Source: Helicobacter canis
GTDB taxonomy: Bacteria > Campylobacterota > Campylobacteria > Campylobacterales > Helicobacteraceae
Assembly (NCBI RefSeq): GCF_900451095.1
Contig: NZ_UGHV01000001.1
Span: 682,001-746,000, forward strand
Length of the DNA stretch: 64,000 nt
Direction: 5' to 3'
A program made the position numbers and the translations under genes. Position 1 is the stretch's first letter. Every line of letters begins with the position of its first letter. The notes under the pieces were generated by a model. It saw only the letters and a program-made list of their open reading frames with translations. It ran no database searches and was not told where the DNA came from. Shown in pieces: positions 6,037 through 20,589 of the stretch.

Positions 6037-7974
6037 ATGCGGTTTGTTTGGCTTTGGGTTTGTTTTACGGCGGTGCTTTGTGCAAAGACATTGCGCCCTA
6101 TTGATTTTGAGATTGTCAAAAAAGAGGTATCAAAATCCCCTACATTATTGATCATTGGAGGGATACAAGGCGATGAGCCCGGCGGCTTTAATGCGACAAA
6201 TATTTTTCTCAATCACTACACGATCAAAAATGGCAGCGTCTGGGTAGTCCCTGTGCTAAATCCACATTCTATGCTACTAAATCATCGTGGAATCTATGAT
6301 GATATGAATCGCAAGTTTGCACTCATCAACCCAAACGATCCTGAAAAGCCACTGATAGAGCATATCAAAAGCGTCATCAAAGAAGACCAAGTCCAAGCTG
6401 TGCTGCATTTACACGATGGGAGTGGGTATTATCGCCCAAGCTTTGAAAGCACACTTGCTAATCCAAATCGCTGGGGAAACTGCACGGTGATCGATCAAGT
6501 TACCTTAGAAGGCGTGAAATTTGGCGAGCTAGAATCTATCGCAAACGCAATGATCGCGCATATCAACGCACATTTACTAGCCCCAATCCACCGCTATCAT
6601 TTGCACAACACCCAAACCGCTGAAAAAGACAAAGAAATGCAAAAAGCCCTGACCTTTTATGCGATCAATCAAGGCAAGCCCGGCTATGCCAATGAAGCGA
6701 GCAAGGAGCTTAATGTCGCCCAGCGCGTGTATTATCATTTGCTAGCTATTGACGCGCTTTTGACACAAATGGGCATAGAGTTTGAGCGGGATTTCACGCT
6801 AAGCCCACAAAATGTGCAAAAAGCCATCAAAGATCGCTCCCAGACCTTTGCCCTTGAAAATCTCCCTGAAATGCCACTTTTTGGCTTGCGTCCTGTGCTT
6901 GCTAGCTTCCCTATCCCCAAAGGCAAAAAAGCTAGTGAAATCACCATTATTTCAAACAACAAGATTCTAGGGCTTTTGCCTAGGGATAATGCACTAGTGC
7001 TGAAATATGGCAATAATGTGATGACCAAAATCCTCCCCAAACGCGTGGAGCTTTATCAAGGATCAATCAAGCCCCTAGAATCCACAATCGACAAGCAAGC
7101 ACGAAAAATCTCTGTGGGCGAGCGCGTGCAAATAGCGCGTGAGATAAGCCTACCTAGCACAATAACACTTGATGATAAGCACACGATGCATTTGCGCGTG
7201 GTGGGGCTTGTAGGGAAGGATCCTAGCCACATCACAAAGGCTTCTCTCAACCAAAATGCGAGCCTTGATACAGCCGGCAAGCTCTATCGCGCAGAAATCT
7301 ATATCCAAGAGAAGCTAGAGCCTAGCAATACGCAAGAAAAAGTGGATTCTAGCAAAGATCATAAAGTGGATCTAGACTCTGCTGCTGCACTTCCGCGCGT
7401 GCGTGTAAATGTCAATCTAGCCAATATCCGCACGCAAGCAAAAGTGGATTCTAGTGTCGCTGGTATGGTGCGATGGGGGAGGGAGCTAGAGGTGCTTGAT
7501 AGCATAGAATCCACACAGGGCAAGTGGCTCAAGGTGCGCTATATTTATACAAATGGCACACAAGGGCGTGAGGTTGTAGGCTATATCCTTGCAAACCTTA
7601 CAAAGCCAAATGATAGCTCCAAGATCGCGCAAGTGCGTGTCAATCTAGCACATATCCGCCAAGAGCCAAGTATCAATGCCAATATCGTGGCAAAAGCACC
7701 GCGCGGGAGAGTGATGGAGGTGCGATCTACCACAACAGGGCTAGATTCTACGCAAAATGCCAATACAGAGCAATGGGCGCACATCCATTATGTTTATAGT
7801 GCTAATGGATTAAAGCGCGAGATCAATGGCTATATCCTTGCAAGCTTGCTTGAGCCATTAGAATCTAGTAAGCCACAAGCTCCTAGTGTGCCAAAGCCCA
7901 AAGCCCAAAGAGCCTATAAAGAATACTTTGGCGGTATGATATTGCTTGATTTTGCCAATAACAATGCGCAATGA
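6037..7974 (+). CDS. csd4: Csd4 D,L-carboxypeptidase with two extra C-terminal SH3-like domains
   Basis: 645 residues with an N-terminal signal peptide (1-16). The M14-like domain carries the unusual Csd4 zinc set: Q44 and E47 in GGIQGDEPG, H126 in LHLHDG, and general base E220 in YANEAS, each two residues before the published H. pylori positions Q46, E49, H128 and E222. Csd4 trims peptidoglycan tripeptides to dipeptides and so sets helical twist. H. pylori Csd4 is about 440 residues; here about 200 extra residues hold two bacterial SH3-type repeats (about 465-525 and 535-615, each with VRVN-LA-IR and GYILA-L). Linkers carry three copies of the dispersed 15-bp motif (KVDSS). The stop overlaps the next start (ATGA). 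Confidence 0.9.
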   Translation: MRFVWLWVCFTAVLCAKTLRPIDFEIVKKEVSKSPTLLIIGGIQGDEPGGFNATNIFLNHYTIKNGSVWVVPVLNPHSMLLNHRGIYDDMNRKFALINPNDPEKPLIEHIKSVIKEDQVQAVLHLHDGSGYYRPSFESTLANPNRWGNCTVIDQVTLEGVKFGELESIANAMIAHINAHLLAPIHRYHLHNTQTAEKDKEMQKALTFYAINQGKPGYANEASKELNVAQRVYYHLLAIDALLTQMGIEFERDFTLSPQNVQKAIKDRSQTFALENLPEMPLFGLRPVLASFPIPKGKKASEITIISNNKILGLLPRDNALVLKYGNNVMTKILPKRVELYQGSIKPLESTIDKQARKISVGERVQIAREISLPSTITLDDKHTMHLRVVGLVGKDPSHITKASLNQNASLDTAGKLYRAEIYIQEKLEPSNTQEKVDSSKDHKVDLDSAAALPRVRVNVNLANIRTQAKVDSSVAGMVRWGRELEVLDSIESTQGKWLKVRYIYTNGTQGREVVGYILANLTKPNDSSKIAQVRVNLAHIRQEPSINANIVAKAPRGRVMEVRSTTTGLDSTQNANTEQWAHIHYVYSANGLKREINGYILASLLEPLESSKPQAPSVPKPKAQRAYKEYFGGMILLDFANNNAQ

Positions 7975-8777
7975 TACTAGAATCCACAAAATCACCATTT
8001 AAAGTGCTAGAAAATGCGGAGTGGCACACATATAGAGCCTACATAATCCGCACCTTTGCAGGGGAATTTTGCTTGCGTGCAATTATGGATTTTGGAGAGA
8101 TGCCTAGTCTTGTTGGTATTGAGAGTCAAGCTAGGGTGCTGCAAGAAAATACCTCGGCGTTTTTAGCTGGGAAGCAGGCGTTGCACGCGCTGTTGTTTGG
8201 GGCTAGGGGCTGTGGCAAAAGCTCTTTAATCAAGGCGACCTTGCTACCCTATTTGCTAGATTCTAGCTCGCCTTTGCGTGTGCTAGAGCTTGATAGCAAG
8301 GATATTTGCTTGCTGCCTTTGGTGTTTGATAGCCTGCGTGATTTGCCATATCGCTTTATTGTCTTTTGCGATGATATAGCATTCAATCAAGGCGATCCAA
8401 GCTACAAAAGCCTAAAAAGCACTTTGCAAGGCTCGCTTGAAGCAAGGGCTAGCAATATCTTGCTCTATGCTACCTCTAATCTCCGCAGGCTACTAGAATC
8501 CACTTCCTTGCGTGCAGGCAGTAGCCTTCCCCCAAGCAATGAGCTAGTCCAAGAAGAGCTGGCTTTAAGCGAGCGATTTGGCTTGCAGATTGGATTCTAT
8601 GATATTGGCACACAAGAATATCTAGCACATATCGCACGGCTTTTAGATGATGAAACGATTTTGTTAGAAGCAAGCCCTGTGCGACAGAGCGCGCTTAATT
8701 TTGCTGCTAAAATCGGTGGCAGAAATGCGCGTATAGCTGAAGAGTTTGCCATAGCGTGGCGCAACAAAAGCCTATAA
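7971..8777 (+). CDS. DUF815-type AAA+ ATPase
   Basis: 268 residues. Walker A is GARGCGKSS (77-85); Walker B is FIVFCDDI with D134/D135; ATSNLRR near 165-171 is a sensor-1-type strand. The pattern (region before the P-loop with GIESQ and a short lid with EYL) fits the DUF815 family, whose function is not established. The start overlaps csd4 by 4 nt, so it is probably co-translated with it. The first codons (ILEST) are a copy of the dispersed motif, so translation could instead begin at a later ATG such as the one before DFGEMPS. Confidence 0.75.
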   Translation: MILESTKSPFKVLENAEWHTYRAYIIRTFAGEFCLRAIMDFGEMPSLVGIESQARVLQENTSAFLAGKQALHALLFGARGCGKSSLIKATLLPYLLDSSSPLRVLELDSKDICLLPLVFDSLRDLPYRFIVFCDDIAFNQGDPSYKSLKSTLQGSLEARASNILLYATSNLRRLLESTSLRAGSSLPPSNELVQEELALSERFGLQIGFYDIGTQEYLAHIARLLDDETILLEASPVRQSALNFAAKIGGRNARIAEEFAIAWRNKSL

Positions 8778-8858
8778 AACTAGAATCCAAAAAAGCAAGA
8801 GAAAAGCAAAAAGCAGGAAATACAAGAATACACAAGCAAGCCCCCCTCCATACTCCCC

Positions 8859-9569
8859 TTAATCTCTGTTAGATAAACCGATGAGAGAGAGCAGGCTCAT
8901 AAAGATATTGTAGAAGTCAAGATACAGGCTAATCGCCGCATCGACAGGGCTAGAGTAAAGCCCACGGATAATATTTTGCGTATCATACGCCACATACACG
9001 CTAAAGAGAATCACCACCGCACTTGAAATTATTACTTGGAACATAGAGCTTCCAAGAAATAGATTCACAAGTGAGCCGATAAATACGACAATCAACGCGA
9101 CAAAAAGCATTGTCCCCATACTTGCTAAATCTTTGCGTGTCCTAATACCAAAGATACTCATCGCGCCAAAGACAATTGTCGTCATTGCAAATGCCATCAC
9201 CACAGCCCCGGCTCCCGCTTTTGCCGCTACCATAGCCACAAGCGGAGTAGCCACCAAGCCTGTAAGTGTGGTAAAGATAAAGAGCATTGCGATATTAAGT
9301 CCGGGTTTTGAGCGAGAAAACATAAGCCCAAAGAGTGCTGCAATCTCAATGATGAAAAGTATCATACGATTTTCAAACACAAACTGAAGATTGTAAAAGC
9401 CAATTACCGCGCCAACAAAAGCGAAAAACAAGCTCGCCCCAAAGAAAATGTAAGTTATCCTTACAAACTTCACAAGCGCATTATCTTGTGCTGCTGCTTT
9501 TTCAGCAGAGATATTTACATTGCTTGTATCACTTGCATTGTTTGTATAGTTTCTATCATAAAGTCCCAT
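8859..9569 (-). CDS. Bax inhibitor-1 / YccA family membrane protein
   Basis: 236 residues: hydrophilic N-terminus of about 30 residues, then seven hydrophobic segments. Typical family features are FIFTTLTGL in TM3 and the C-terminal SLYLDFYNIFMSLLSLIG with its conserved aspartate. BI-1 proteins conduct or regulate Ca2+/H+ across membranes in the few cases studied; the bacterial role is unclear. An AAGGAG-like site (AAAAGGAGAT) precedes the ATG, and the gene stands alone with its own -10 box. Confidence 0.88.
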   Translation of the reverse strand: MGLYDRNYTNNASDTSNVNISAEKAAAQDNALVKFVRITYIFFGASLFFAFVGAVIGFYNLQFVFENRMILFIIEIAALFGLMFSRSKPGLNIAMLFIFTTLTGLVATPLVAMVAAKAGAGAVVMAFAMTTIVFGAMSIFGIRTRKDLASMGTMLFVALIVVFIGSLVNLFLGSSMFQVIISSAVVILFSVYVAYDTQNIIRGLYSSPVDAAISLYLDFYNIFMSLLSLIGLSNRD

Positions 9570-9599
9570 TAGTATCTCCTTTTGATGAAATGGACTAGG

Positions 9600-9605
9600 A
9601 TTATA
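9600..9605 (-). promoter_or_regulatory. -10 box TATAAT for the BI-1 gene
   Basis: TATAAT on the minus strand, 30 nt before the ATG at 9569, in the 68-nt spacer after lon. Confidence 0.5.
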
Positions 9606-9637
9606 TAGTATTTATCTAAATAATCACGCACGCGTTA

Positions 9638-12107
9638 CTAGCCGCGCTTAAAGACTTCCGCAAACACATCGTGTATGGTTTGCACAGGGATTATTGTGAG
9701 ATGATCAAGCACTTCCTTTGGGATTTCTTTTAGATCTCGTTCATAGTTTTTTGCCGGGATTAGGGCGCGTTTGATCCCAGCTTTGTGTGCGGCGATAAGC
9801 TTTTCTTTGAGTCCGCCAATTTGCAAGACATCGCCTGTGAGTGTTAGCTCACCTGTCATAGCGATCTCACCGCTTATAGGCTTCTCACAGAGGATTGATG
9901 CAATCACACACGCCATAGCGATCCCTGCACTTGGACCATCTTTGGGCGTAGCTCCCTCTGGCAAGTGGAGATGGATATTGTATTGATTATACATAGGACC
10001 TTTTGCTTTATCTTTAGATTTTATTTTAGATTCTAGCTCACCACTCTCAAGCAGCACCTTTACCACAGAGTGCGCGATTTGCGCGGATTCTTTCATCACA
10101 TCACCTAGACTTCCTGTAAGTCTAAGCTCGCCTGTGCCTTTTAGCTTTATGGCTTCGATTTTTAGGACATCGCCGCCTACGCTTGTCCAAGCAAGCCCAT
10201 TGATGATCCCTATACGCGCTTTTTTGTTTGACTGCTCGATCTCAAAGACAACTTTATCTAAGAAGTCTGGGATCTGCTTTGGCGTGAGCTTAATGGGCGT
10301 GAAATCTTCATCTTGCAGCACTTTAGTAGCGACTTTTCGCAAAATTGCAGAGATTTGCCGGCGCAAGTTTCGCACGCCTGCTTCGCGCGTGTATCGCTCG
10401 ATCAGCACACGCACGCTCTCTTTGCTAAATTGGATTTGCTTGTCGGTAAGCCCGTGCTTTTTCAGCTCTTGAGGGATTAGGTATTTATGCGCGATTTGCT
10501 CTTTTTCTTGCGGTGTGTAGCTAGAGATAGAGATAAATTCCATTCTATCGCGCAAGGGGGCTGGGATTTGGGCGATGTCATTTGCTGTGGCGATAAAAAT
10601 CACTTGCGATAAATCAATGCTGAAATTTGTGTAATAATCGCGGAATTCGACATTTTGCTCTGGGTCTAAAATCTCTAGTAGCACGCTTGTAGGATCGCCT
10701 CTCACACCACGCGCGATTTTATCGATCTCATCAAGCACGACTACGGGATTCATTTCTTTTGCTTCAATGAGTCCTTGCACAATGCGCCCGGGCATAGCCC
10801 CGATATAAGTGCGCCTATGTCCGCGCAGCTCATTGACATCTTCTAGCCCACCTAGCGCGATACGCACAAGCGGGCGGGATATGGCTTTGGCGATAGAGTT
10901 TGCAAGGCTTGTTTTCCCCACGCCCGGAGGTCCATAAAAGCACAAAATTGTGCCTTTGGACTTTTGACTCTCTGTGTCGCGGTTTTTTGTCTTTTTGGCA
11001 TTTGCTTTGGCATTTTTGGCGAGCAATTCACGCACCGCAAAATACTCGATAATGCGCTCTTTGGGCTTGGTTAAAGAGTAGTGATCTAGATCAAGTTGTT
11101 TAGCGACATTTTTGATAGATAGCTCGCCTTTAGCATAGCTACCAAAGGGGATTTCTAGCACCCACTCGACATAGTTTTGTAGCAAATTCGCATCAGCACT
11201 ATCTTGGTGCATTTTAGATAGGCGGTTGATTTGCTTTTTTATCTCTTTGTAGGCATCTTCATTGAGAAATTGCTTTATGGATTCTAGCTTTTTGGCAAAT
11301 TCATCAAGCTCTTCATCGCGCTGCTTATCGACTCCTAGCTCCTTTTGGATCTGGCGCATTTGCTCTTTTAAGAAATATTCGCGATTGGTTTGCTCAAGCT
11401 TATCATGCACGCGCGATTTGATTTCTTTTTGGAGTTTTGGGCTTGGATTTCTTGCGTTACAAAATCGATCAACATCATCATTCGCTCTTCGATATTATCG
11501 CTTGCAAAGAGTTTATACGCTTCTGCTGGTTTTAGGCGCAAGGTCGATGCGACAAGATCGATGACGCGATTTGGGTCATTGGTCTCTTCAAGCGTTTTTA
11601 GCATTTCTGGGGGGAAGTGGCTGATATTGGCGTAGTTTTGGACATTTTCTAGGAGAAATTTCATCATCGCTTCAACGCGCACTTGGTTGTAGTCTTGATA
11701 CTCGATAATCTCAACAATAGCTTCAATCACGCTATCGTCTTCTTCGCTAGTTTGTGGCTCTAGAGCGATCACTTTAGTGATAGCCATCCCTTGCAAGAGG
11801 ATCTTCACGCGCCCATCAGGCAAGGACACTTTGCGTAAAATCTTGCACACCACACCCACATCATAAATGGCATTGCACTAGAATCCACTTTTTCATCACT
11901 ATTGGATTCTGGGCTGGATTCTGCCTTTTGGCAGCACACTAGCACAAGGTCATTGCGCTCTAGTGCGACATTTGCTGCTGCGATATTTTTCTGCCCTTGT
12001 GTGAAAATAGGGGCAATCGCAAAGGGGTAGGTAAAATCCTCCTCTACAATCACAGGAAGAGTAGGGGGGACAGGAAGAGTAGGGGGGAAATGTTGCGGAT
12101 TTTGCAT
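9638..12107 (-). pseudogene. lon: ATP-dependent protease Lon, split by two single-base frameshifts
   Basis: Three consecutive frames together give a full Lon: N-terminal substrate domain (from 12107), middle (11859 to about 11440) and the AAA+ and protease part (about 11410 to 9638). The last part has Walker A GPPGVGKTS, Walker B VVVLDEID, catalytic Ser in DGPSAGIAMA and Lys in GGLKEKLIAA. One base appears lost in a T run at 11435-11438 (restoring it gives QKLQKEIKSRVHDKL) and one near 11869-11870 (restoring it gives SAMPIYDVGVV). An 18-bp tandem repeat at 12052-12087 doubles PPTLPV near the N-terminus. Start is supported by AAGGAG. It follows bamD by 21 nt. The breaks may be assembly errors. 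Confidence 0.88.
12052..12087 (-). repeat. 18-bp tandem duplication in the lon N-terminus
   Basis: Two perfect copies of ACAGGAAGAGTAGGGGGG lie head to tail, in frame (six codons each), giving a duplicated PPTLPV block before the conserved VEEDF of Lon. It is frame-neutral and outside conserved sequence. Confidence 0.85.
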
Positions 12108-12128
12108 TCTTGCTCCTTAAAGAGATAA

Positions 12129-12795
12129 TTACCAATTAAACATACGCACATATTCAGGTATGTAAGATGGCTTGGGCTTGGCGTTAGATTCTAGGTCATC
12201 ATCGATTCTATCAAGGTATTTTTGCACTGCTTCGGGCTTTTTTGCTTTTTATAGACATTGACAATCCCCCTATTAAGCTCATTTTGCCCTAGCACAAAGC
12301 GCACTTGCATTGTCTGCACGAAAGGCACATACCGACTTGTAGGATATTTATCTAAAAAATCATCAAAGGCAGAGAGAGAGTCAGAGAAAACTCCTGATCT
12401 TTACTAGAGTTCTTAATCCCATAGTAGCGACTTTGGAGTTTTAAGTAGGTGATATAATCAGCATTTTTTGCCGTGCCAAAACGCTTCAAATACTCATCAA
12501 AATAAAATTCTGCGAGCAAATACTCCTCTTTTCTTATGTGAGCCTGCCCTAAAATCAGCATAGCTTCTGGTAGCAAGGGGGAGTTGATATGCTCACTTTG
12601 CAATGACGCATAGAAATTATCCGCGCCTTCTAGATTCCCAAATTTTATTTCTTTGATGATGTTTTGATACCAATATATCGCTGGTTTATTAAACTCATTT
12701 TTGTCTTTTTTATCACAAGCACTAAAGACAACACAAATGGCAAGCGCACTACACTGCAATACACAAAAACGAAAAAGCCTTTTATCAAATCGCAT
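12129..12795 (-). pseudogene. bamD: Outer membrane assembly lipoprotein BamD (ComL-like), split by two single-base frameshifts
   Basis: The first frame (12795 to 12352) has a lipoprotein signal with lipobox FSAC (Cys27) and TPR-like repeats (YWYQNIIKEIKFGNLEGA, AEFYFDEYLKRFG). It then runs out of frame. Restoring one base at the A run 12387-12390 continues into SAFDDFLDKYPTSRYVP and on to NRGIVNVYKKQK; restoring a second at the T run 12238-12243 leads to a natural C-terminus (PSYIPEYVRMFNW, stop at 12129). The whole would be about 222 residues, as for Helicobacter BamD. BamD is essential for outer-membrane protein insertion in most Gram-negatives, so true loss is unlikely. It lies upstream of lon, as in H. 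pylori. Confidence 0.8.
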
Positions 12796-12824
12796 ACATT
12801 ACCTTAGAGAGTGAGAGTGTGCGC

Positions 12825-12830
12825 ATTATA
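12825..12830 (-). promoter_or_regulatory. -10 box TATAAT for bamD-lon
   Basis: Minus-strand TATAAT, 29 nt before the bamD ATG, in the 100-nt spacer after flgG. Confidence 0.55.
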
Positions 12831-12897
12831 CACTAGATTCAATAACCACCGCCTCGCGCTTAAATAGCTGCTTGGCTAGATTTGCTTAAGCAAGATT

Positions 12898-13686
12898 CTA
12901 GCGTTTGAGAGAATTAACCGTTTGGAGCATTGCATCGGCTGTTTGGATTGTTTTGGAGTTTGCCTCATAGGCTCTTTGTCCGGTGATGAGATCTGTCATC
13001 TCCTCTACAAGCTTGACATTACTTAGCTCTAAAAAGCCCTGCCTAAGTGCGCCAAAGCCCTCTGTGCTAGCCACGCCTACAATCGCATCGCCGGAAGCAT
13101 TGGTGTTTAGAAACAAATTATCCCCCAAAGAGTGCAGCCCTGCTGGGTTTATGAAATTTGCCACTTCGATTTGCCCTATCACATTGCTTACACCATTATT
13201 TGCCTGCACGACACTCACTGTGCCATCTGTGCCGATATTGATTTGCGTGGCATCTTGGGGGATAGTGATTTGGGGCTGGAGAAGATAGCCCTGCGCGGTT
13301 ACGATATTGCCATTATCATCAAGCTTAAACCCCCCATCTCTTGTATAGGCGATCGTGCCATCGGGCAGCTGGATTTGGAAAAAGCCCTTGCCCTCAATGG
13401 CTACATCAAGGTTGTTTTCTGTCTCTTTGGGGCTACCTTGAGAAAACATTTTTTGCACAGCACCCGGACGCACGCCAAGCCCCACTTCTATACCCGTGGG
13501 GGAGAGTGTCGTCTCGCTTGTGGCGGTGCCGGCGTATTGGAGCGTTTGGTAAAAGAGGTCATTAAACTCGGCTCTTTGCTTCTTATAGCCGGTGGTATTG
13601 ACATTGGCGATGTTGTTTGAGGTGGTATCAATCTGTAACTGCTGTCCTAGCATACCTGTGGTGGCGGTATAGAGTGAGCGCATCAT
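12898..13686 (-). CDS. flgG: Flagellar distal rod protein FlgG
   Basis: 262 residues, the exact usual FlgG length. The N-terminus has the rod/hook signature (MLGQQLQIDTTSNNIANVNT); the middle has the FlgG/FlgE-type domain (VAIEGKGFFQIQLPDG, AYTRDGGFKLD); the C-terminus ends with the amphipathic export helix (TIQTADAMLQTVNSLKR). It forms the distal rod joining the basal body to the hook. A sigma-54 promoter lies 45 nt upstream, matching the RpoN class of flagellar genes. Confidence 0.97.
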   Translation of the reverse strand: MMRSLYTATTGMLGQQLQIDTTSNNIANVNTTGYKKQRAEFNDLFYQTLQYAGTATSETTLSPTGIEVGLGVRPGAVQKMFSQGSPKETENNLDVAIEGKGFFQIQLPDGTIAYTRDGGFKLDDNGNIVTAQGYLLQPQITIPQDATQINIGTDGTVSVVQANNGVSNVIGQIEVANFINPAGLHSLGDNLFLNTNASGDAIVGVASTEGFGALRQGFLELSNVKLVEEMTDLITGQRAYEANSKTIQTADAMLQTVNSLKR

Positions 13687-13730
13687 TATGCAATCCTTTG
13701 GGCGCGAAGTTTAAACACCCAAAGGCTAAA

Positions 13731-13744
13731 GCAAAAAAAGTTCC
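13731..13744 (-). promoter_or_regulatory. Sigma-54 (RpoN) promoter of flgG
   Basis: Minus strand reads GGAACTTTTTTTGC: GG, ten bases, GC, with TTTA before and TTTA after. Same layout as the site at 5943-5956. Confidence 0.78.
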
Positions 13745-13812
13745 TAAATTTGTCGCCTAAATTTGCTCTATGTTTTGTGGCAGGAGTATCGGCAGTGATT
13801 TGGGGCTTTAGC

Positions 13813-14817
13813 CTAGCGCACAAGCAAGCGATAAGCAAGAATATAAGCAATGATAAATACTAGGCAAGTAAGCATAAGCGCAGAAGTGTTGGCATAAAAA
13901 AATGTCGCTAGGATAATAAAGGGCGCATTGGCACAGATGAGTATAAAAGAGGTTAAAGGATTGTTGCCTAGCTTTTTGAAAAGGAGTGTATGAAAATGCG
14001 CAGAATCAGGCTGCATTGCTTCTTTTTTATCAATCACTTTGCGCCTTAGTATTGAAAATAAGACTTCCCAAACTGGATAAATCATCACACAAAACCCATA
14101 CCAAGGGCTAACGATAGAAGATGGCTCTTGTGTGAGTAGCACAAGCATCACGGCTAAAAAAAATCCTATGAGGTATGCGCCACCATCGCCTAAAAATACC
14201 TTGCCCTTGGGAAAATTTAGCACCAAAAATCCCAGAATCGCACTTAGCAAAATCGCGCACCCAATGGCAATGGGAAGCATATCTACCTGCTTTGCTATGA
14301 TGATAATCGACACACACACACACGCCGCCACGCCGCCACTTAAGCCATTAAAGCCATCGATGATATTCATCGCATTACACACGCCAACAACTGCAAACAC
14401 CCCAAACGCCACGCCTAGCACATAAACAAACTCAAACCCAAGTCCCAAGTCCCTAAGCCACGCATTTTCCATAGCTACACACGCCACGCTTGCGCCAAAG
14501 CATTGGATAAGCAAGCGAAGCTTGGGGCTAAGAGATACCCCCATATCCTCCACAAATCCGCTAGCAAATATCACCAAACACGCCACGATAAAATACACCC
14601 ACGCACTAGAAAGTAGCCCAAATGAAGCAAACCCTACTAGCACGCCTACTAGCACGCCAAGACCACCAGCACGAGAAGTAGGGCGATAGTGGAATCTCTG
14701 TGGTTTAGAAGAGCTACTAGAATCCACAAAAAGCTGATATTTCTTGCTAATGAGTATCACCCCTTGTAACACTAAAAAAGAGAGAAAAAACACAAGCAAA
14801 TACAGCAAAATCCACAT
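13813..14817 (-). CDS. wecA: WecA/MraY-family undecaprenyl-phosphate sugar-1-phosphate transferase
   Basis: 334 residues, about ten membrane segments. Family motifs: NAMNIIDGFNGLSGG (148-162), GKVFLGDGGAYLIG (205-218) with the catalytic aspartates, and PDSAHFHTLL (270-279), the His motif that sets sugar choice; the early DD motif reads ED here (90-91). It starts lipid-linked glycan (O-antigen or N-glycan) assembly at the inner membrane. Odd points: a (GT)7 dinucleotide tract inside the gene at 14310-14323, and the last 83 codons have a nearly identical inverted copy at 14936-15202. WecA is favoured over MraY because no cell-wall genes are nearby and the His motif fits WecA. Confidence 0.85.
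   Translation of the reverse strand: MWILLYLLVFFLSFLVLQGVILISKKYQLFVDSSSSSKPQRFHYRPTSRAGGLGVLVGVLVGFASFGLLSSAWVYFIVACLVIFASGFVEDMGVSLSPKLRLLIQCFGASVACVAMENAWLRDLGLGFEFVYVLGVAFGVFAVVGVCNAMNIIDGFNGLSGGVAACVCVSIIIIAKQVDMLPIAIGCAILLSAILGFLVLNFPKGKVFLGDGGAYLIGFFLAVMLVLLTQEPSSIVSPWYGFCVMIYPVWEVLFSILRRKVIDKKEAMQPDSAHFHTLLFKKLGNNPLTSFILICANAPFIILATFFYANTSALMLTCLVFIIAYILAYRLLVR
13818..13986 (-). repeat. Left arm of a 169-bp inverted repeat (wecA 3' end)
   Basis: Aligned by eye to 15014-15182 on the plus strand: three mismatches in 169 bp, all third-base and synonymous in the shared frame (Ala, Ser and Ile codons). A further 21-bp identical block (14045-14065 against 14938-14958) lies on the inner side, separated by diverged sequence. 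Spacer between the cores is about 1.03 kb and holds the rest of wecA and its upstream region. Confidence 0.9.
14310..14323 (-). repeat. (GT)7 dinucleotide tract inside wecA
   Basis: Seven perfect GT units (AC on the plus strand) coding AACVCVS around residue 167 of WecA. Loss or gain of a unit would shift frame. It is the only long dinucleotide tract I saw in a coding region here. Confidence 0.85.
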
Positions 14818-14935
14818 ATCCTAGAGCCTTGAGTAATATAATCACAACACAAAGGCTGGATTCTAGCAAAGCCTTACTATATGCTCCCTTAAAGGCATAG
14901 AATCCAAACGCGGATTCTAGTAAATTTAGTTATGA

Positions 14936-15202
14936 AAAGTCTTATTTTCAATACTAAGAAAAAAACTCGCTGGGAAATCCCCTATGCAGCCAGACTCCAA
15001 ACACTTCCATATGCTCCTTTTCAAAAAGCTAGGCAACAATCCTTTAACCTCTTTTATACTCATCTGTGCCAATGCACCCTTTATTATCCTAGCGACATTT
15101 TTTTATGCCAACACTTCCGCGCTTATGCTTACTTGCCTAGTATTTATCATCGCTTATATTCTTGCTTATCGCTTGCTTGTGCAAAATAATCCACACAAAT
15201 AA
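14936..15202 (+). pseudogene. Orphan wecA 3' cassette, inverted relative to wecA
   Basis: The plus strand carries an open frame that lines up with the last part of WecA: VLFSILRKKLAGKSPMQPDS, then the HFHMLLFKK motif and three C-terminal membrane segments, ending VQNNPHK and stop. It has no start of its own in register with a full protein, so alone it is a fragment. The KSPMQPDSKHFH form is closer to the usual WecA His motif than the one in the intact gene. Between wecA and it lie about 115 bp with two dispersed-motif variants. It is either a relic of a second wecA or an alternative 3' end that DNA inversion could join to wecA. Confidence 0.8.
15014..15182 (+). repeat. Right arm of the 169-bp inverted repeat
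   Basis: Partner of 13818-13986; see that entry. The frame stays open through the arm and for seven codons beyond it. Confidence 0.9.
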
Positions 15203-15207
15203 TATGC

Positions 15208-15213
15208 TACAAT
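15208..15213 (+). promoter_or_regulatory. Possible -10 box TACAAT before the maf gene
   Basis: Extended TATGCTACAAT, 34 nt before the ATG at 15247, directly after the stop of the wecA fragment. Confidence 0.4.
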
Positions 15214-15246
15214 TCCCGCTATAACACCCACTTAATAAGGCTCTCT

Positions 15247-17231
15247 ATGCTACTTTCTCTCCTAAAAGCAGATGATACAAAAGCCCTAGAGCAAGAGATT
15301 TCTACGCGATTTGTGCGTAATATGGAGTATTTTCACAAAACTTCCCCAGAGCTTTTTGACGCGCTGAAAAATGACCCCACTGACTATAATCTCATCATCA
15401 ACACACAAGGCATAAATATCCTAAATCTTGCCAGCAATGAGCTTATCTACCCTGTGGAAGATGGCATCTCACAAATGGTAGCAATCAATGAAGCCCTAAG
15501 TCTATCGCCTTTGAAAAATGATAAATGGCATATCCACTCAAATGGTGCTTATCTTGACAAAATGGATACGCAAAAGCTCCCTATCACTGCTGAAGTGTGC
15601 AATGGCTTCATTGACCTGCTTTTTACGCACAATGGCGTGAAAGAGTATTTTTAAGCAAGGATTTCTTGCCTAGCACTACGATTTTTGGGCTACTTGGGGG
15701 AATGTTTGTAGAGTTTTTGCGTGAAAAGGGAGTGTTTTTCCACTCATTGCTAATCTTTGAAGAAAATCTCGATATGTTTCGCATTAGCTGCTATTTTGTG
15801 GATTATCCTAGGCTTTTTGAGAGCGTGAGCGATGGGGCGTGCTATTTGTTTGTCAAAGATTTGGTGAATCGCTTTTTTATCCGCAATTTTTTCGCACGCC
15901 AGAAAATCACTAATAACTTCTTGCGCCTAGAGCTTAATCTCTATGAGAGTCCTAAAATGGATTCTGCTATGCAAATTGTCAATGAAGAGCATTTGAGCAA
16001 TGCGCGTGGGTGGGGGAGCTTTGAAGATGAGATGATAGGCATACAAAATACTCTAGAAAATCTCCCAAGCAAGCATAAGCACAACTATTTTCTCCAGAAT
16101 CCAAAGCGCATTGATATGCCCATTTGTGTGGTGGGTAATGGCGCGAGCTTGGATTCTAGCTTAGAGTTTATCAAAGTAAATCAAGCAAATATGATCATCT
16201 TTAGCTGCGGGACAGCACTCGCCCCGCTAAAGCACGCAGGGATTGAGCCAGATTTCCACATAGAAATAGAGCGCATAGACTATCTAGCAGACTACTTGCG
16301 CCCAGTCCTTGGCAAAACGCCCTTGCTCTGTGGCAATATGATAAATCCTAGCGCGCTAGGGCTAGCAAATGAGCGGTATGTCTTTATGCGTGGGGGCAGT
16401 GCGAGTGGCTATATGTTTAAAAGCCCTTATGTAATGGAGTTTTGCGCACCATTTGTGGGGAATGCAGGCTTTGCCCTTGCGTGCCAGCTTGGGAGTGAGG
16501 TGCTGATGTGTGGGCTTGATTGTGGCTATATTTTAGGCTTTGGCAAGCACGCGAAAGACTCTGCCTATGGCAAAGAAGAAGCCTTTAGCCTAGAGAATCT
16601 CCCCAAAGGCACTATCCCCGTGCGCCCAAATTTTGACCACGAAAATCAAGCGATGCTAGAATCTATGCCGGAAAATTATGCTGTATATAGTGATTCTATC
16701 TTTTTGCTCTCCGCCCAAATGCTCTCTCAAGCCATTAAAACCTACAAGCCAAAGACCATCTTAAATCTCGGTATGGGGGCATATATAGAGGGTGCTCGCC
16801 CCACGCACTCAAGCGAATTTGCCTTGAAGAAAAACAAAAAATCCAAATATATTAAGCTACTCAAAAGCTACTTTACTAGCGATTTGCACGCCGTCTTTAG
16901 CGATTGCCGCAGTGATTTTTATCTCCAAGAGATACAAGACTTCAAGCAGCAGCTTTCTTCTATGCTTGCTTGCGATCTTGTGAGTAAGCAAGAGCTTTTT
17001 GTCTGGGTGGATCAGGTCTTTAATCTCTGTGCGAAAAAGAGCGCGAGCAGCCCGTATGTAGGCATTCTCTTTGAAGGCACGATCGCCCATATCTGCCAGA
17101 ATCTAATGCTTGCTGCCTTGCATCTCCCAAGCAATAATATCCAAGCATTTTTCAGCGATGCGCGTGCGCTTATCGCAAGCGCACTAGATAAAATGCTCTT
17201 GCGCTATAAAATGCTTATCTCGCGTTATTAG
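15247..17231 (+). pseudogene. Maf-type (DUF115) motility-associated glycosyltransferase, one frameshift
   Basis: Two abutting frames make one protein. The first (15247-15654, 135 codons) ends GVKEYF-stop; the second is open across 15651-17231 and continues SKDFLPSTTIFGLLGG. One base restored to the T run at 15648-15652 gives about 660 residues. The C-terminal part has the DUF115/MptE-like core (ICVVGNGASLDSS, FSCGTALAPLKHAGIEPDFHIEIER, EVLMCGLDCGY). Maf proteins of Helicobacter and Campylobacter transfer pseudaminic-type sugars to flagellin. Campylobacter maf genes can be phase-variable by long G tracts, but five T is too short for that, so an assembly error is more likely. It follows the wecA fragment. 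Confidence 0.82.
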
Positions 17232-17245
17232 ATATAGGGGCGTGT

Positions 17246-17788
17246 ATGGATATAGCGCATAATTTTCTAGGGCTTAAGACACTCATAGCAAGCGCATCTA
17301 TGCATATCAAAACGCCAGAGATGGCAGTGTTTGGGCTATTTTTCTTAGTATTTGTGCTGGTATTTTTCTTTTTATTGATTTTTTGGCGGTATCGCTTGGT
17401 GTTTATGCTGTGTGTTATGCTTGAGCTGTGTATTGTGTTTATCACGCCTTTTGGCGTGGCATTTGTGATGCGGCATTTTCTCTATCCTATCAAGGTCAGC
17501 TACACGCATTTCGCGCCCTTTGTCTATACAAGTGGCTTTAGCTTTGATCTAACTATCCGCAATCTTAGCAAGCTAGAAATGAAAGAATGTATGCTTACTA
17601 TCACGCCCTTGCGCGAGAATCCTAAGCAAAGCCTGCTTATCACTCTGCAAGATACGCTTCTACCGCTAAATGCCTACACACAAGTGCTAGCCCAGCCTAT
17701 CAAGCCTAAGCAAAGTGTGCGCTGGAGCGGGATAATTGATAATTATCGCTATGGGGAGCGATATAGCTCGGTGCTTGATTGCCATTAG
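17246..17788 (+). CDS. DUF2393-family membrane protein
   Basis: 180 residues with two adjacent hydrophobic stretches (about 28-50 and 52-75) and a soluble domain of about 100 residues beginning HFLYPIKVSYTHFAPFVY, predicted beta-rich, with ending WSGIIDNYRYGERYSS. The domain fits the Campylobacterota DUF2393 family. In H. pylori the corresponding gene (HP0292) is next to pabB (HP0293), as here. No function is known. It follows the maf gene by 14 nt and runs into pabBC. Confidence 0.65.
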   Translation: MDIAHNFLGLKTLIASASMHIKTPEMAVFGLFFLVFVLVFFFLLIFWRYRLVFMLCVMLELCIVFITPFGVAFVMRHFLYPIKVSYTHFAPFVYTSGFSFDLTIRNLSKLEMKECMLTITPLRENPKQSLLITLQDTLLPLNAYTQVLAQPIKPKQSVRWSGIIDNYRYGERYSSVLDCH

Positions 17789-17789
17789 T

Positions 17790-19595
17790 ATGGAGTCGTG
17801 TGTCTTTGGCAAATGGTGCTACTATGATTGTGTCGTGTCTCTCAAAGCCCACAATCAAAAGCAAAGCAAAGAGCTTTTTGCCTATATCGAGTCCCATAAG
17901 CACACATTGTTTTTTGTAGGGTTTGTGGAGTATGAGTTTTATCGCTATTTGCGTGATGAAAGCTATGAGAGCGCAAAGCCTTATTGCGTGTTTTATGGCT
18001 TTAGGAGTAGAAGAGCCTTTATCAAAGAGGGCATAGCACAAGAGCGTTTTGCTCCAAGTGTGCTGCGCCCTCTTGATAAAGCCCGCTATTTGCGCGATTT
18101 TGCCGCGGTTAAAGAGGCGATTGCTAGCGGCAGAAGCTATCAGGTCAATCTCACACAAGAGCTAGAGTGCAGCACGAAGCTGGATTCTAGCGCGCTGTTT
18201 GACTTGCTTTGTGCTAGGCAGGATACGCTGTATAAAGCCTTTATCCCAGAAGAAAATGGCGCGATCATCTCGCTTTCCCCAGAGCTATTTTTCAGCCTAA
18301 AGGGCAGAGAGATCACCGCAAAGCCGATGAAAGGCACAATGCCAAAAGGCAAGGGCAACAAGCGCAAGCTCGCTAAAGATTGGAAAAACAAAAGTGAAAA
18401 TCTAATGATCGTGGATTTGCTGCGAAATGATTTGTCTAAAATCAGCAAGCTACATAGCCTGCACACAAGGCTTTTTGACATAGAGTCCTACCCCACGCTC
18501 TATCAAATGACCTCTACTATCACAGCCACGCTAAAAAGGCGCGTGGGCTTGTATGAGATTTTTGAAGCACTCTTTCCTTGCGGCTCGATCACAGGTGCGC
18601 CAAAGCACGAGACAATCACGCTTATAGAGAGCCTAGAGCGGCGTGAGAGGGGGATTTACTGCGGGAGTATAGGCGTGGTGCATAAGAAGCGCGCGAGCTT
18701 TAGTGTGGCGATACGCACCTTGCGGCACAGGGGCGAGCGGTTTTGCTATGGTGTGGGGGGTGGTATCACTTGGGAGTCTCGTGCGCAAGATGAGTGGGAG
18801 GAGCTTGGGCTAAAGGCAGAGATTTTGCGAGCCAAAGAGTGCCATTTGTTTGAGACTATGCTGCTACAAAATGATCACATAGTGCTACTACAAGCCCATA
18901 AGCAAAGATTGCTAGATTCTGCTAGGAAGCTAGGCTTTGATACAGGGGGCATTGATGAATTTATGCGAGGGTTTAACGCCCTAGAATCCACTTTGAGCAG
19001 CGAGTTTTTGGGCATTGATAGAGAGCTGTTTCACAAAGTGGATTCTAGTCAAATGCCAATGGATTGCCACACACTGCAAGCGGTGCTGCCAATGACAGAA
19101 AAAAGCCTTGCTAGTCAAAAAGTGGATTCTAGCCCCCAAGCCAAAAGCGATCCTATCATCTTGCGACTTGTGCTACATAGAGATGGCAGCCTAGAATCCA
19201 CTTTTGCCCCCTTACGCCCCGCCACAAGCGATGTGCTGCTGCTTAGTCCTATCACGCTCCAAAGTGCCAGCGATCATCTCTATCATAAAAGCTCTTTGCG
19301 CGAAGTGTATGACTCACACAGCCATTTATGGCGGAAAAATCGCTGCTATGATGTGGCGTTTTGCAATGAAAGGGGCGAGCTATGCGAGGGAAGTAGGAGC
19401 AATATCGTGCTGCAACAAGGAGGGCGATTCTACACGCCGCCCCTGAGTAGCGGACTGCTTGGTGGCGTGTATCGGCAATTTTTGCTCCAAAAGGGTGCGA
19501 TAGAAGAGCGCGTGCTGTATGCCAGAGATTTGGAGAGTGCGAGCGCGATTTATTGTATCAACTCTGTGCGCGGGGCTAGGCGAGTGCGACTATGA
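17790..19595 (+). CDS. pabB: Aminodeoxychorismate synthase I / aminodeoxychorismate lyase fusion (PabB-PabC)
   Basis: About 601 residues making p-aminobenzoate for folate. PabB part: VNLTQELE, LSPELFF, PMKGTMPKG, IVDLLRNDLS and GSITGAPKHET, all chorismate-binding motifs. PabC part (from about 355): ETMLLQN early and RSNIVLQ, PLSSGLLGGVYR late, typical of the class IV PLP fold. I chose ATG 17790 (MESCVFGKW), 1 nt after the previous stop; the frame stays open 54 nt further upstream. A segment at 19035-19137 is an inserted piece of intergenic repeat: a 38-bp hairpin unit between two dispersed motifs, read in frame. pabA overlaps by 4 nt. Confidence 0.9.
   Translation: MESCVFGKWCYYDCVVSLKAHNQKQSKELFAYIESHKHTLFFVGFVEYEFYRYLRDESYESAKPYCVFYGFRSRRAFIKEGIAQERFAPSVLRPLDKARYLRDFAAVKEAIASGRSYQVNLTQELECSTKLDSSALFDLLCARQDTLYKAFIPEENGAIISLSPELFFSLKGREITAKPMKGTMPKGKGNKRKLAKDWKNKSENLMIVDLLRNDLSKISKLHSLHTRLFDIESYPTLYQMTSTITATLKRRVGLYEIFEALFPCGSITGAPKHETITLIESLERRERGIYCGSIGVVHKKRASFSVAIRTLRHRGERFCYGVGGGITWESRAQDEWEELGLKAEILRAKECHLFETMLLQNDHIVLLQAHKQRLLDSARKLGFDTGGIDEFMRGFNALESTLSSEFLGIDRELFHKVDSSQMPMDCHTLQAVLPMTEKSLASQKVDSSPQAKSDPIILRLVLHRDGSLESTFAPLRPATSDVLLLSPITLQSASDHLYHKSSLREVYDSHSHLWRKNRCYDVAFCNERGELCEGSRSNIVLQQGGRFYTPPLSSGLLGGVYRQFLLQKGAIEERVLYARDLESASAIYCINSVRGARRVRL
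19061..19098 (+). repeat. 38-bp hairpin repeat unit inside pabBC
   Basis: Matches the intergenic copy at 58364-58401 at 35 of 38 positions by eye, from GGATTGCCAC to CCAATGACAG. It is flanked at 19035-19048 and 19124-19137 by the motif AAAGTGGATTCTAG in direct orientation. Read in frame it gives MDCHTLQAVLPMT. Confidence 0.85.
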
Positions 19596-20161
19596 AGCGC
19601 GTGCTAATTATTGATAATTATGATTCTTTCACTTATACAATCGCGCTGTATTTTAGGGAGCTTGGCTATGCGTGCGAAGTGATCCAAAGTGCCAGCGTGG
19701 CACACCCTAGTGATTTGCGCTGCCTGCGCTTTTCTCATCTAGTGATTTCACCGGGTCCAAACTCCCCCAAGGAAGCTAGCTTTAGTGTCCAGGCGATACA
19801 GTATTATAAAAAACGCACGCCCATTCTAGGGATCTGCCTAGGACATCAGTGTATCGCTTATGCCTTTGGCGGAGAGATTTCTAGGCTAGAGTCCCCCACC
19901 CACGCCAAGCTCCACACGCTACACTACACAAAATCGCCTATTTTTAGAAAGCTCAAAAAGCAGCCTAGAATCTGCCTCTATCACTCACTTTTTGTCTCGC
20001 AATGCCCCAAATCCTGCAAGGTCATAGCCTATGACAATAGGGGCGTGATTATGGCTATCGCGCATAAAAGGCTGTCTATTTATGGGATACAATTTCACCC
20101 AGAGGCTGTGCTAAGTCAATGTGGGAAGCAGATATTGCAAAATTTTATGCGCCTAGCGTGA
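19592..20161 (+). CDS. pabA: Aminodeoxychorismate synthase glutamine amidotransferase PabA (TrpG-like)
   Basis: 189 residues, class I glutamine amidotransferase. Catalytic Cys82 in GICLGHQC and His169/Glu171 in IQFHPEA; oxyanion loop in SPGPNSPKEA. It supplies ammonia to PabB, whose gene it overlaps by 4 nt (ATGA). TrpG is the alternative, since the two are near-identical in fold, but the pabBC neighbour decides it. Confidence 0.9.
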   Translation: MKRVLIIDNYDSFTYTIALYFRELGYACEVIQSASVAHPSDLRCLRFSHLVISPGPNSPKEASFSVQAIQYYKKRTPILGICLGHQCIAYAFGGEISRLESPTHAKLHTLHYTKSPIFRKLKKQPRICLYHSLFVSQCPKSCKVIAYDNRGVIMAIAHKRLSIYGIQFHPEAVLSQCGKQILQNFMRLA

Positions 20162-20589
20162 TGGTCTTGCGTTTAAGCTATTTAGTCTTGGGCGAGCAAT
20201 GCGAGGGAAGTAATCCATTGTTTTTCTAGCCTTGCGAGTCGCTTTAGTGGTGTGGCGATCTAAATTTCAAAAGTGGATTCTAGTAGCAACGCTTTTTTCT
20301 GTCATTGCGAGACACTGCGCCAGCAGTGGTGTGGCAATCTATAAATTCTGCGCTAGCAGAATAATCATTACTAGAATCCACTTGCAAGGATTGTGGATCG
20401 CCACGACTTCCTTGCGGAAGTCTCGCGAGTGAGAGAAAAGCGGCATTAAGCCTAGAATCCACTTTTTCTAAAGAAGCTTCGCTTTGTGATTGTTGTGTTT
20501 ATTGCTTATGAATTGCCGCGCGGTGCAAGCGGTGCTTGCAAGAGAGCACAATAACCGCTAGTGAAAAGTGGATTCTAGGGGGATAAAGG
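20162..20589. repeat. Repeat cluster between pabA and efp, no gene seen
   Basis: 428 bp between convergent genes. Contains four copies of the dispersed 15-bp motif: 20271-20284 and 20563-20578 in one sense, 20371-20383 and 20450-20466 in the other, so they form two inverted pairs. Two hairpin repeat units of the GTCATTGCGAG...GGCAATC type lie at 20301-20340 and 20395-20432 (reverse), the latter with stem GACTTCC/GGAAGTC. At 20189-20207 is a piece (GTCTTGGGCGAGCAATGCG) like the ends of the 57.7-58.6 kb element. I see no tRNA or plausible coding frame. Confidence 0.8.

Follow-up and report, generated by a model that had tools for sequence, protein, structure and literature searches.

A probable XerH-driven inversion switch that exchanges the C-terminal module of WecA in Helicobacter

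We report that the body of a Helicobacter wecA gene lies on an 870-bp segment that occurs in two orientations, each of which joins it to a different C-terminal module, termed T or M. As far as can be judged from assembled sequence, both orientations, the position of the crossover, the integrity of the two isoforms, the selection acting on the modules and the pairing of T and M in relatives are all supported. We interpret the locus as a two-state site-specific inversion switch of wecA driven by XerH, and give this reading a probability of roughly 80%. The window referred to below is the whole 64-kb stretch of DNA that was analysed; it belongs to the main contig (C1) of its assembly.

Organization of the wecA locus

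The features of the locus, in window coordinates, are the following.

12898..13686, minus strand: flgG, 3′ of wecA in the main orientation (PF22692, PF06429, PF00460)
13813..14817, minus strand: wecA, T form, 334 aa, polyprenyl-phosphate sugar-1-phosphate transferase (PF00953, E 2.3e-31)
13813..14064, minus strand: T-class C-terminal module, RRKVIDKKEAMQPDSAHFHT...YRLLVR (dN/dS 0.095 vs H. canis)
13825..13986, minus strand: distal T module, apparently homogenised with the M module (3/162 nt differ from the M copy)
14045..14066, minus strand: 22-bp core, flgG side, perfect repeat with the C5 crossover inside
14046..14074, plus strand: difH-like site S2, TTAGTATTGAAAA-TAAGAC-TTCCCAAACT, 26.8 bits, rank 1 in the window
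14067..14936: invertible segment, 870 bp, wecA body (codons 1 to ~250) plus a 119-bp leader, inverted in C5 and H. canis
14929..14957, minus strand: difH-like site S1, TTAGTATTGAAAA-TAAGAC-TTTTCATAAC, 24.1 bits, rank 2 in the window
14937..14958, plus strand: 22-bp core, maf side, perfect repeat with the C5 crossover inside
14937-15202, plus strand: inverted copy of the wecA 3′ end, reading in frame from VLFSILR up to a stop of its own at 15202 (...VQNNPHK)
14939..15202, plus strand: M-class C-terminal module, RKKLAGKSPMQPDSKHFHM...VQNNPHK, fused to wecA in C5 but idle on the main contig
15014..15175, plus strand: distal M module, apparently homogenised with the T module (3/162 nt differ from the T copy)
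15247..17231, plus strand: maf-like glycosyltransferase gene, 3′ of wecA in the inverted orientation (PF01973, PF20157)

The wecA product has the PF00953 domain that defines the WecA/PNPT family (E 2.3e-31) and matches MraY chains in the PDB at E about 1e-6. The first-pass annotation had noticed that the 3′ end of wecA recurs in inverted orientation with three mismatches, all synonymous, and that the copy runs in frame through VLFSILR to its own stop and a VQNNPHK end; both observations hold, with 3/162 nt differing and the stop at 15202. A repeat search of the window places the inverted arms at 13818-14016 and 14984-15182 (199 nt, 93% identity). Separate from these arms, the homology opens with a 22-bp core of sequence AAGTCTTATTTTCAATACTAAG. 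Allowing up to three mismatches, this 22-mer is found on the chromosome solely at these two places, in addition to two in contig C5; as it is otherwise absent from the chromosome, the repeat pair is not due to chance. A promoter scan near the invertible segment returned 6 sites against 3.4 expected, too small an excess to be informative.

The maf-like gene is split in the main contig at a T tract around 15647 into two ORFs, 15247-15654 and 15666-17231. C5 has one extra T in this tract and H. canis one extra base, either of which would fuse the two ORFs; the split is either a real frameshift or a consensus error.

Two orientations of the invertible segment

The inverted form, whose search had been recommended, is present in the window's own assembly, where contig C5 (13.7 kb, corresponding to window positions 6830-20553) contains the locus once more. 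Both flanks of C5 have the same orientation as in the window and the middle, 14067-14936, is reversed. After an in-silico flip of this segment C5 is identical at 1900/1900 aligned bases around the junctions, whereas flips set elsewhere in the arms leave mismatches. Over its whole length C5 has 93 differences to the window, mostly single-base indels; none falls between C5 positions 5544 and 8804, a central stretch of 3.2 kb with 0 differences. We take C5 to be a long-read haplotig that was poorly polished, a judgement that rests on the assembly. Since no reads were inspected, the evidence stays at the assembly level and gives no proportion of each orientation; the flip rate and the reversibility of the inversion are inferred.

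In C5, wecA is an intact 338-aa M form that ends at 15202 in window terms. The earlier idea that inversion would rebuild a full gene up to this stop is thus borne out, but the crossover lies in the 22-bp core and not, as had been assumed, between 169-bp arms. It was also right about the new 3′ neighbour: with the flip, flgG (126 bp away) is exchanged for maf, which starts at 15247, 44 bp from the 15202 stop. The strain comparison that had been advised gives the same picture: in H. canis CCUG 32756T the locus is flanked as in the window, neither 22-bp core has changed, and wecA lies in the C5 orientation. Two properties that define an inverton are met, namely the occurrence of both orientations within a single genome or population (here C1 and C5 of the same assembly) and a crossover at a short inverted repeat rather than at long homology (the 22-bp core in C5). 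On the available assemblies, the inversion of wecA and its two orientations can be considered confirmed.

Crossover position and candidate recombinase

The T-type proximal segment keeps the flgG flank, and the M-type segment the maf flank, in C5 as well as in H. canis. The distal arms share an identical run of 62 bp, yet each C5 arm variant stays with its own flank. The conservation of this module-flank linkage places the exchange inside the 22-bp core.

Both ends of the segment resemble difH. Sites were scored with a matrix derived from 24 difH sites in the literature (PMC3325230, Table 2), using their arms and leaving the spacer unscored, and the published sites used for comparison were those of PMC3325230 and PMC2731167. 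S2, which overlaps the wecA codons VWEVLFSILR, and S1, where the invertible segment ends on the leader side, score 26.8 and 24.1 bits and outrank every other site in the 64-kb window; the third is one of these ends read backwards, and the next independent site has 8.2 bits. In 2 Mb of simulated sequence the best score was 16.2 bits, and published difH sites range from 20 to 40. The wecA sites therefore have the difH arms around a 6-bp centre expected of XerH targets, but not the conserved C at position 23, which is T in both; for this reason we call them difH-like and not difH. In H. pylori, recombination by XerH at difH depends on FtsK and is strongly impaired when the C at position 23 is replaced by G (PMC3325230); cleavage in vitro is tolerant of changes at this position (PMC5241119). 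In S2, the inner arm resembles a right arm and is constrained by coding, which counts against the XerH reading. The spacer of both S1 and S2 is TAAGAC, and that of the genome's own difH-like site at C1:1610028 is CTATAA. Tyrosine recombinases require matching spacers; the wecA switch and the genome's own difH would therefore stay apart.

A recombinase gene elsewhere in the genome, which the first-pass annotation had proposed to look for, was found in xerH (L043, matching PDB 5jjv at E 2e-112). The genome has three more PF00589 genes, two of them identical copies (phage-type integrases L044/L045, and L046), while a profile search of the genome found no serine recombinase of PF00239. Of the tyrosine recombinases, XerH alone has an orthologue in each of the five genus members. 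In other genus groups, the arms at invertons look like the difH arms of the group concerned. We regard housekeeping XerH, rather than a dedicated invertase, as the probable recombinase, although both the identity of the enzyme and its dependence on FtsK are inferred.

Selection and gene conversion between the modules

Differences restricted to synonymous positions had been taken to fit either gene conversion or selection on both copies, and the comparison with H. canis supports both. The dN/dS values are 0.095 for the T module, 0.028 for the M module and 0.075 for the wecA body; judged by these ratios, both modules are under purifying selection and the idle tail is not decaying, contrary to the decay in relatives that a relic would have predicted. 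The 3 nt that differ between the two copies within the distal 54 codons (162 nt) are all synonymous, while the distal T and M parts are 19 and 21 nt, respectively, from their H. canis orthologues. Distal synonymous divergence amounts to 0.08 within the window genome and 0.31 within H. canis, but to 0.58-0.71 between the species. Low divergence within and high divergence between genomes indicates that gene conversion between the copies homogenises the distal arms. The proximal T and M segments escape it: over the ~25 codons that follow the core, the two differ in sequence as well as in length.

T and M modules in other Helicobacteraceae

A family search revealed that further genomes, too, contain partial copies of wecA in inverted orientation. 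Eleven Helicobacteraceae genomes from three genus groups (the window genome, H. canis, G053, G055, G059, G060, G083, G084, G085, G086 and G088) each contain one T and one M module, inverted to each other. The T class is defined by RRK...HxHT (R first) and the M class by RKx...HxHM (K first). The intact gene ends in T in C1, G055, G059, G085 and G086, and in M in C5, H. canis, G053, G060, G083, G084 and G088. In a tree, T and M group by class within genus group g4 and largely within g6. Exceptions are G063 (g4), whose idle T module is frameshifted, G057 and G087, where only M was seen, and G002, in which no second module was found.

In g4 (G053, G059, G060 and G063) the wecA repeats are 372-429 bp long, 98-100% identical and tail to tail, and no difH-like sites were found at the repeat in these four genomes. 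XerH sites are thus not required for such a wecA switch. The repeat of G055 is 39 bp. The loci L172-L176 (G053, G059, G063, G060 and G055, in this order) all have tail-to-tail inverted repeats with the alternative C-termini inside, and apparently represent a homologous-recombination version of the same switch. In g6, 4/5 genomes examined show the divergent layout of the window. Their core spans 20-22 bp and falls on the same codons, and on the promoter side they have a palindromic Xer-like site near AGATTGAAAA-GTGCTC or GTACTC-TTTTCAATCT; the fifth, G088, has an interruption close to the end of the core. The g6 sites score low on the difH matrix, 13.4 bits at most, so that their Xer nature is a resemblance only.

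Other difH-like loci

A second cluster of difH-like sites lies at a TupA-like ATP-grasp gene (PF14305; G000:C1:338510-343182, L067 7510-12182). Five sites with the spacer TCGTCA are clustered at C1:339362-343182 around the 3′ end of the gene, together with four silent C-terminal cassettes, and the order of the segments on contig C6 (L017) differs from that on C1. By its arrangement, this cluster is a putative shufflon of the TupA-like gene, assembled in two arrangements. A single site of 31.4 bits with the spacer TTAGAC, found beside ParA-like and replication-like genes on a 26-kb contig (L016:16689, G000:C4), is probably a plasmid resolution site.

Further cases were seen in other genomes. 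An inverton of ~460 bp with difH-like sites is located between GT2-like and UDP-galactopyranose-mutase-like genes in another genus group (L114, G069, 1501-1994; L118, G078, 1501-1987); the two genomes have it in opposite orientations, 92.7% identical when reversed. A short inverted pair of difH-like sites with the spacer TTTGAC, between divergent NTP-transferase-like and DegT-aminotransferase-like genes (L092, G053:C49, 1372-1529; also G057:C5:62480-62633), could be an invertible promoter. Another inverted difH-like pair (L116, G074:C27, 74-1192; spacer TGAGAC) is just upstream of a wecB-like epimerase gene. As a control, the reversed pattern matched 0/121 genomes with zero mismatches, and some genomes when one mismatch was allowed.

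Proposed mechanism and alternative explanations

In E. coli WecA, the last cytosolic loop contains an HIHH motif whose His279 is required for function, and this loop is presumed to be where the donor sugar is recognised (PMC5222938). With the loop placed according to that work, the modules begin just before the HxH cytosolic loop and include the last membrane helices; the HxH motif expected of PNPT enzymes in this loop is present in both forms (HFHT and HFHM). The suggestion that a motif changes with the flip was therefore correct (HxHT vs HxHM), but its description as a sugar-acceptor motif was not, since the cytosolic HxH loop is linked to donor-sugar recognition in E. coli WecA. AlphaFold2 models of the window and H. 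canis WecA had a mean pLDDT of 41.6 and were not used.

We propose that two inverted difH-like sites with an identical private 6-bp spacer flank the 870-bp segment, and that a tyrosine recombinase, most likely chromosomal XerH, would swap strands inside the 22-bp core. With the core in frame in the codons VLFSILR, each flip would provide an unchanged WecA body with either T, from the flgG side, or M, from the maf side, exchanging the last ~80 residues from the HxH loop on. Cells would alternate between two intact WecA isoforms, and the downstream neighbour of wecA would change too (flgG or maf). The most likely consequence would be a shift of the transferase in sugar-donor or pathway preference, leading to changes in the surface glycan. 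A change of donor preference is the leading idea because the modules start just before the donor-sugar loop; there are no enzyme data, so that enzyme activity, specificity change and phenotype are inferred, and the substrates of the T and M forms are undetermined.

The main alternative to a donor switch is the change of neighbour gene. The inversion might matter mainly for expression, on the flgG or the maf side, with a neutral tail difference, and the shift from flgG (126 bp) to maf (44 bp) as well as the identity of most of the distal tail in the two forms would agree with this. We find it unlikely, as the leader moves together with wecA so that the 5′ region is kept, and T and M remain distinct at the HxH loop in three genus groups despite different layouts and flanks, a distinction that is maintained although gene conversion acts on the remainder of the arm.

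With regard to how the segment inverts, the distal arms are near-identical within species and evolve in concert, which means that they do recombine, and the long g4 repeats lack difH-like sites. RecA-dependent recombination between the 169-199-bp arms, with only an incidental resemblance to difH, is nevertheless improbable: no other difH-like sites in the window score as high as the segment ends, in H. canis the flanks of the proximal T and M segments are unchanged, and the C5 crossover is confined to the 22-bp core despite the 62-bp identical run. A crossover within the 169-bp arms was rejected, as the C5 arm variants stay with their own flanks. The presence of three further PF00589 genes, and of a 70% identical relative of L044 in H. 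canis, leaves some room for inversion by one of the phage-type integrases (L044/L045 or L046), but only little, given that none of these genes has an orthologue in all genus members, that the sites match difH, the target of XerH, and that the inverton arms of other groups resemble their own difH arms. Finally, the copy could be an ordinary relic of a second wecA and C5 an assembly artefact, in line with its many indels outside the centre and the absence of inspected reads. This is hardly credible and was rejected: the flanks of C5 are on the same strand, which is not expected of a fold-back read, its junctions are error-free, H. canis holds the other orientation, and the idle modules are under purifying selection.

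Relation to known systems and significance

XerH-driven inversion of wecA has features in common with several known systems. In the R64 pilV shufflon, the Mu G segment and inverting hsdS loci, a constant part is fused to alternative C-terminal parts. The wecA flip likewise joins a constant part to alternative C-termini, as in shufflons, tail-fibre inversions and hsdS; in contrast to these, the constant part moves and the variable parts stay. It also differs from shufflons and hsdS in its recombinase and sites, and in that wecA encodes a membrane-bound initiating sugar-phosphate transferase. With dimer resolution by XerH/difH in Helicobacter and Campylobacter it shares sites of the arm-6-bp spacer-arm type (TGAAAA...TTTTCA) and the presence of xerH, but the wecA sites are inverted, away from the genome's own difH, equipped with another spacer and located in or beside a coding gene, and the outcome is inversion instead of dimer resolution. 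The protein itself is like the WecA/polyprenyl-phosphate N-acetylhexosamine-1-phosphate transferases, with a PF00953 core and HxH cytosolic loop, and differs from them in having two switchable C-terminal modules in one locus. Inversion of surface-related loci by a Xer-family tyrosine recombinase recalls vpma switching by Mycoplasma Xer1/XerC-type enzymes (PMC11868660). However, vpma inversion selects the expressed lipoprotein gene, whereas that of wecA swaps the 3′ end of an enzyme gene and, unlike vpma, probably uses the housekeeping recombinase.

A literature search of partial coverage, and hence a weak negative, returned no description of XerH inversion, invertible wecA or difH invertons. 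A wider hypothesis, for which we see even chances of being right or wrong, is that Helicobacteraceae co-opted XerH as a general inversion engine for surface-glycan genes, with private spacers insulating the loci from difH and from each other; the wecA T/M specificity switch would be the most conserved target, and other lineages would use homologous-recombination inversions. WecA catalyses the first step of O-antigen-type glycan synthesis, and a switch in its donor loop, if true, would alter every chain that WecA starts. Phase variation in Helicobacter has been described mostly for simple repeats; inversion by a dimer-resolution recombinase, if true, would be a separate mechanism and would explain the scattered difH-like sites.
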